A DNA stretch of 64,000 bases, taken from positions 83,340-147,339 of the forward strand of contig DZAY01000002.1 in assembly GCA_022729735.1 (NCBI GenBank), in the 5' to 3' direction. A model generated the notes under the pieces. It saw only the letters and a list, made by a program, of their open reading frames with translations. It searched no databases and was not told the origin of the DNA. The translations under genes were made by a program, and so were the position numbers. Shown in pieces: positions 9,043 to 9,524 of this stretch; the first letter of the stretch is position 1; every line of letters starts with the position of its first letter. Origin of the DNA: Helicobacter cetorum (GTDB taxonomy: Bacteria; Campylobacterota; Campylobacteria; Campylobacterales; DZAY01).

Positions 9043-9156
9043 TTATCCTTGTCTCTGTTTATGTTTTGGATTAGAGCAAATAACTCTCACTATCCCTTTT
9101 CTTTTAATAACTTTACAATTCTCACACATCTTCTTAACAGATGGTCTAACTTTCAT
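9043..9156 (-). CDS. rpmJ: Ribosomal protein L36, zinc-binding form (too short for the ORF track)
   Basis: 37 aa, read directly: it begins [15 protein letters not shown] and ends NPKHKQRQG. It has the zinc ligand set CENC, a later Cys (VICSN) and His (PKH), so it is the C+ form. A good Shine-Dalgarno (AGGAG) precedes it. It is the first gene after a leader with terminator-like and anti-terminator-like structures. Confidence 0.95.
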
Positions 9157-9183
9157 GGTAAACTCCTACATATAATTGGCACA

Positions 9184-9239
9184 AAAAAATAGGTTTAATG
9201 ACTACTTAAACCAACCCTCTAAAAAATTGCCTATTTTTT
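9184..9239 (-). promoter_or_regulatory. Putative attenuator in the rpmJ leader
   Basis: On the minus strand, downstream of a TATAAT box, RNA would carry AAAAAATAGG (9239-9230), then the hairpin GGTTTAA-loop-TTAAACC (9212-9192) followed by TATTTTTTT. The first segment is a perfect 10-base complement of CCTATTTTTT (9193-9184), which includes the end of the hairpin and its U-tract. The two pairings are mutually exclusive, as in a terminator/anti-terminator switch. The regulator is unknown. Confidence 0.55.
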
Positions 9240-9280
9240 ACTTTTTAAAGGATTCTTCGTGCAGTTTAAAAAAGGATGAA

Positions 9281-9286
9281 ATTATA
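9281..9286 (-). promoter_or_regulatory. Probable -10 box of an internal promoter before rpmJ
   Basis: TATAAT on the minus strand within GATATAATTT, between infA and rpmJ. No convincing -35 box at the right distance, as is common in Campylobacterota promoters. Confidence 0.5.
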
Positions 9287-9305
9287 TCAGATTTAATGTA
9301 AATAT

Positions 9306-9524
9306 TTACTTATATCTGAATGTAATTCTTCCTTTATCTAAACTATAAGGTGTAAGTTCTACCTTTACTTTATCATTTGGCATAATTTTAATATAGTGCA
9401 TTCTCATTTTACCAGCTATATGACATAACACTATATGCTTATTATCTAATTCAACTCTAAAAGTTGCATTTGGTAATGCCTCTATAACTTTTCCATCTAC
9501 CTCAATTACATCATTTTTTGCCAT
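9306..9524 (-). CDS. infA: Translation initiation factor IF-1
   Basis: 72-aa S1/OB-fold protein; [37 protein letters not shown] and [12 protein letters not shown] are diagnostic. It lies 4 bp after map and is the last gene before the rpmJ leader. Confidence 0.97.

Follow-up and report, generated by a model that had tools for sequence, protein, structure and literature searches.

The window analysed here is a 64,000-nt stretch of Helicobacter cetorum DNA (contig DZAY01000002.1, positions 83,340-147,339), and all leader coordinates are window positions on its minus strand. An initial annotation of the infA-rpmJ spacer had singled out a TATAAT box, the hairpin GGTTTAA (9206-9212)/TTAAACC (9192-9198) with its U run, and a 10-base complement between AAAAAATAGG (9230-9239) and CCTATTTTTT (9184-9193), and had read these as a terminator/anti-terminator switch in front of the alpha operon. 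All of these letters were found on the minus strand. A leader motif was located at 9176-9266 (-), and the features of the locus, all on the minus strand, are as follows.

9281..9289, minus strand: predicted extended -10 promoter TGATATAAT, read from the sequence, which would drive the leader
9259..9264, minus strand: conserved CUG and P1 5' strand (CUGCAC), with the C and U at the motif start 98-99% conserved; the P1 pairing with 9179-9182 is predicted by folding and ambiguous in the window
9255..9258, minus strand: junction GAAG, 96-99% conserved in 99 relatives
9240..9254, minus strand: P2 5' strand AAUCCUUUAAAAAGU, from the fold and P2 covariation in relatives
9228..9239, minus strand: P2 apical loop AAAAAAUAGGCA, homologous in position to the xCACy that covaries in relatives
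9228-9231, minus strand: likely pseudoknot 5' strand GGCA, a putative 4-bp assignment in the window
9230-9239, minus strand: AAAAAAUAGG, the proposed anti-terminator, inside the P2 apical loop
9213..9227, minus strand: P2 3' strand AUUUUUUAGAGGGUU, from the fold and P2 covariation in relatives
9192..9212, minus strand: P3 hairpin GGUUUAA-GUAGUCA-UUAAACC, the proposed terminator, with P3 covariation in relatives
9183..9191, minus strand: U run TATTTTTTT between P3 and P1'/pseudoknot, specific to the window's genome
9178..9182, minus strand: GUGCC, serving as P1 3' strand GUGC (9179-9182) and/or pseudoknot 3' strand UGCC (9178-9181)
9163..9167, minus strand: Shine-Dalgarno AGGAG of rpmJ, read from the sequence
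9043..9156, minus strand: rpmJ (L36), from the open reading frames, which opens rpmJ-rpsM-rpsK-rpsD-rpoA-rplQ (9156 down to 6251)

The TATAAT at 9281-9286 (-) is part of the extended -10 sequence, and transcription of the leader is predicted to start at about 9274-9277 (-). Of the 99 relatives, 91 had a TANAAT box no further than 80 nt ahead of the motif, usually 20-40 nt from it, which is consistent with a dedicated promoter for the leader. An imperfect palindrome at 9262-9346 (-) covers the last infA codons, the infA stop and the -10 box; its RNA fold (-24.0 kcal/mol, z -6.2) has a short U run after the inner stem. The element may be a terminator for the preceding operon that overlaps the promoter of rpmJ. 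A separate hairpin after infA was present in some relatives of family f6, and f6 loci such as L114, L118 and L126 had an additional hairpin upstream of P1, where the leader transcript is predicted to begin.

The 106-nt leader folded at -25.0 kcal/mol (z -3.4), which was equalled by none of 200 shuffles. The complete fold and its conservation thus lie well outside chance expectation, whereas the elements singled out initially are weak when taken one by one. The predicted fold was a three-way junction in which the hairpin annotated as a terminator forms P3 and the supposed anti-terminator falls in the loop of P2. The infA-rpmJ spacers of other Campylobacterales shared this core, consisting of CUG, a short P1 strand, GAAGAA, P2 and UUGG, followed by P3, which runs from the GG of UUGG to CC, and then by P1' and AGGUGC or AGUGG.

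The distribution of the motif was assessed with covariance models in genomes that all belong to the order Campylobacterales. A model built from the spacers of 18 relatives with the window excluded (R1) detected the motif in 203 of 399 genomes (E <=0.05) and 39 of 87 genera, nearly always at one locus per genome and with Campylobacter-type genomes among the carriers. In the window's genome R1 gave a single match, at 9176-9266, with an E value of 4.5e-6 and 37.8 bits. The model that included the window (R2) detected the motif in 160 of 298 genomes. Several Campylobacterales families lacked the motif at the sensitivity of the covariance search. When sequences were inspected by eye, negative-scoring members of f17, f23 and f16 g27 and some of f9 appeared to retain pairings resembling P2-UUGG-P3 ahead of rpmJ, their loops having diverged, and no such structure was seen in f8, f15, f18 and most f14 sequences. 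Among the 99 studied matches the RNA preceded rpmJ-rpsM in 96, bearing out its annotation as an alpha operon leader; two ran off the contig end, and the weak match L215 was the only one with sequence there that was not upstream of rpmJ-rpsM. Downstream sequence was sufficient in 85 cases, with rpsM and rpsK present in 84 and, under a strict pattern, rpsD as well in 76.

Conservation of the fold was evaluated using the alignment of the 99 sequences. In this alignment, which was fitted to P1-P3 and therefore favours those stems, 92.4% of cells paired, two-sided changes were found in 25 of 29 pairs, and the covariation score was 0.519 as compared to 0.175+-0.007 for shuffles and 0.027-0.095 for slid partners. 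All 13 modelled pairs of P2 showed two-sided covariation; for P3, 96.6% of cells were paired and five of the seven pairs had changed on both sides. Independent compensatory double changes inferred on the RpsM protein tree numbered 156, as compared to 6-16 for slid structures and 16+-9 for permuted partners. P1 shifted in position between families, and its strands paired at -8.5 kcal/mol within families vs -6.2 kcal/mol between families overall; the within-family advantage was clear in f4, f7, f11, f21, f22 and f9, and no clear gain over swapped partners was seen in f6, f10, f19 and f5. A structure supported by covariation in a consistent position upstream of ribosomal-protein genes, as found here, is what is used to recognise ribosomal-protein leaders.

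Outside the modelled stems, sequence comparison indicated a pseudoknot in which the P2 loop pairs with bases just ahead of the rpmJ Shine-Dalgarno. Of 86 sequences, 80 and 84 had complementary bases at the two pairs flanking the CAC/GUG core, as compared to 40.6+-4.1 and 72.0+-1.6 after shuffling. The strands varied in concert as GCACC/GGUGC, GCACU/AGUGC, ACACU/AGUGU, CCACU/AGUGG and GCACA/UGUGC, the unrelated strands GGGAA/UUCCC were found in L204 and L209, and GCAUUU/AAAUGC was identified by eye in a Campylobacter (L022). Judged on these alignments, P2, P3 and the pseudoknot covary strongly. The window copy retained CUG, GAAG, P2, UUGG, P3 and the UC of the P3 loop (91% conserved in the 99 relatives). 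Its pseudoknot candidate, GGCA (9228-9231)/UGCC (9178-9181), has four pairs in the homologous position, and GUGCC lies in the same place as the covarying strand of the relatives, 11 nt before the Shine-Dalgarno. P1 (GCAC/GUGC) and the pseudoknot compete in the window because both need the same downstream bases. By its sequence the window's copy is a divergent member whose pseudoknot is short and whose P1 is ambiguous, and it comes from a genome that was the sole member of its family among those compared. These peculiarities may reflect decay, a switch or a changed output.

In 61 of the 89 cases measured, the window among them, the pseudoknot ended 9-17 nt ahead of the Shine-Dalgarno. An initiating 30S subunit covers a region whose upstream edge falls close to this position. 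In about one quarter to one third, comprising all of f4 and some of f7, f19 and f21, the leader was 36-460 nt from the rpmJ Shine-Dalgarno, so a block there cannot act directly; another output or loss of regulation is possible for these distant leaders. Long non-coding insertions between leader and rpmJ were observed in L118, L119, L011, L015, L184-L192 and L205, reaching about 460 nt and often GC-rich and repeat-like. The f4-type loci L015, L184 and L192 had intrinsic-terminator-like hairpins with U runs 3' of the pseudoknot strand. A conserved terminator after the pseudoknot was rejected, as such sites occurred at these three loci only.

The initial reading was of a transcription attenuator in which P3 and its U run would terminate and pairing of AAAAAAUAGG with CCUAUUUUUU would anti-terminate. 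Its elements do exist in the window, and the three f4-type relatives carry terminator-like hairpins 3' of the pseudoknot, although only at those loci among all that were compared. The P3 pairing was conserved as predicted, but the hairpin is weak (-4.7 kcal/mol, only two G-C pairs) and did not pass a simple terminator scan. The run of seven U was found in one of 99 sequences, the window itself, with no run longer than four in any other relative. The 10-base complement is present, but its pairing, which competes with P3, was not conserved, and complements of at least 10 bases arose in 26 of 400 shuffled spacers. Forcing the anti-terminator fold on a 125-nt leader gave -15.6 kcal/mol vs -28.6 kcal/mol, a cost of 13 kcal/mol. 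The combination of a conserved stable hairpin, a U-tract and a competing anti-terminator that characterises an intrinsic-terminator attenuator was not found. We rejected the switch on fold energies and on the lack of conservation of both the U run and the competing pairing, and consider attenuation at this site very unlikely. Weak local features spotted by eye can nevertheless lead to a real but different structure.

We favor the interpretation that 9176-9266 (-) belongs, as a divergent copy, to a conserved class of cis-acting ribosomal-protein leaders that block translation, with S4 as the likeliest ligand, and hold it with reasonable though not high confidence. Translational repression is the likeliest output because the pseudoknot mostly ends close to the Shine-Dalgarno and terminator-like sites occur at three loci only. 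The leader RNA would be transcribed from its own promoter ahead of rpmJ-rpsM-rpsK-rpsD-rpoA-rplQ. A ribosomal protein encoded by the operon, most likely S4 (uS4), would bind the junction once its amount surpasses that of free 16S rRNA, stabilising P1 as well as the pseudoknot next to the ribosome-binding site. The stabilised pseudoknot would block or trap the 30S subunit and repress rpmJ, and the rest of the operon would be repressed through coupling. A broader version of this proposal, which we think rather unlikely, is a single Campylobacterales-specific leader class that keeps the ligand-binding junction and varies the output (the pseudoknot close to the rpmJ start in most families, a terminator beyond the pseudoknot in L015, L184 and L192, and possibly P3 used like a terminator in the window's lineage), so that one ribosomal protein would control production of both the ribosome and RNA polymerase alpha by different means.

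The choice of S4, which the initial annotation had also suggested, draws on precedent from other phyla. In E. coli, S4 has been confirmed to regulate the alpha operon, by entrapment on a pseudoknot (PMC10931766), and unrelated leaders elsewhere among the bacterial phyla are predicted to bind it (PMC7247131). No significant resemblance to the 16S S4 site was found in the five leaders examined. Words shared with the 16S S4 region were no longer than chance, as measured in shuffled leaders, and mimicry of this region was not supported; the f6 pseudoknot strands GCACCG/GGUGCAA are also present in 16S h18, and most families have CCACU/AGUGG. A 16S rRNA was not detectable in the window's own assembly. 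The same leader could respond instead to S13, S11, L36, L17 or the RNA polymerase alpha subunit. The L36 gene lies immediately downstream, and both the missing 16S resemblance and the reliance on precedent leave room for such a ligand. In the literature examined, though, published leaders of such operons, confirmed or predicted, are all assigned to S4, and we regard a different protein ligand as improbable but worth keeping in mind. That the RNA senses a small molecule, a small RNA or temperature is more improbable still and would surprise us: a junction with a pseudoknot is typical of riboswitches too, and the unpaired GAAG and the loop UC are conserved, but the motif is tied almost exclusively to a ribosomal-protein operon at one copy per genome and matched no Rfam riboswitch. 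The RNA is very probably a feedback switch through which a ribosomal protein restricts its own synthesis; that protein is probably S4 and the control probably translational, with ligand and mechanism assigned by analogy.

Known RNA families were searched with Rfam. The window leader gave no match up to E 5, and the leaders of five relatives gave none up to E 1 apart from one Alpha_RBS match off the leader. This match (L091, 2088-2194) scored 20.1 bits, below the threshold of 38, and covered the end of rpmJ and the start of rpsM. At the leader itself the Alpha_RBS model (RF00140), the rpsB (S2) leader and the S4 leader models from Eckert and Weinberg (e.g. S4-Clostridia RF03140) had no match, the first of these in the window and five relatives. 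Rfam contains leaders from the 2020 survey, and Epsilonproteobacteria are absent from Table 1 of that survey. No published leader of the S4/alpha operon in Campylobacterota was found in a literature search limited to journal articles, mostly open-access ones. The best reading is that the leader is new and lineage-specific, with no Rfam family and no published description found. It would fill a gap in the published ribosomal-protein leader lists examined, which have no S4/alpha operon entry for Campylobacterota (Campylobacter, Helicobacter), and would open the autoregulation of ribosomes and of RNA polymerase alpha to direct testing in this phylum.

The leader resembles E. coli Alpha_RBS in preceding an operon with rpsM-rpsK-rpsD-rpoA-rplQ, and in having a pseudoknot near the ribosome-binding site of the first gene with translational control expected. 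Unlike Alpha_RBS, it is built on a three-way junction with a pseudoknot from the P2 loop, and it precedes rpmJ whereas Alpha_RBS precedes rpsM; the suggestion of no relationship to the E. coli pseudoknot agreed with our comparison by sequence and model. With the rpsB leader it shares a three-stem junction and a pseudoknot to a 3' extension after P1 (PMC2704228), but the pseudoknot arises from the P2 apical loop here and from the P2/P3 junction in rpsB, and the gene is different. Like the S4 leaders of Clostridia, Fusobacteriales, Bacteroidia and Flavobacteria (Eckert and Weinberg 2020) and the Firmicutes rpsD leader, it is lineage-specific and belongs to rpsM/rpsD operons, with a ligand assigned by precedent. 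It differs from them in lineage, in its own stems and pseudoknot, and in the absence from its conserved columns of GUAA, the 16S rRNA imitation of the Firmicutes and Fusobacteria S4 leaders. By analogy the leader works like the known S4 leaders but is no member of them, and it would add a further independent way in which RNA controls this operon.
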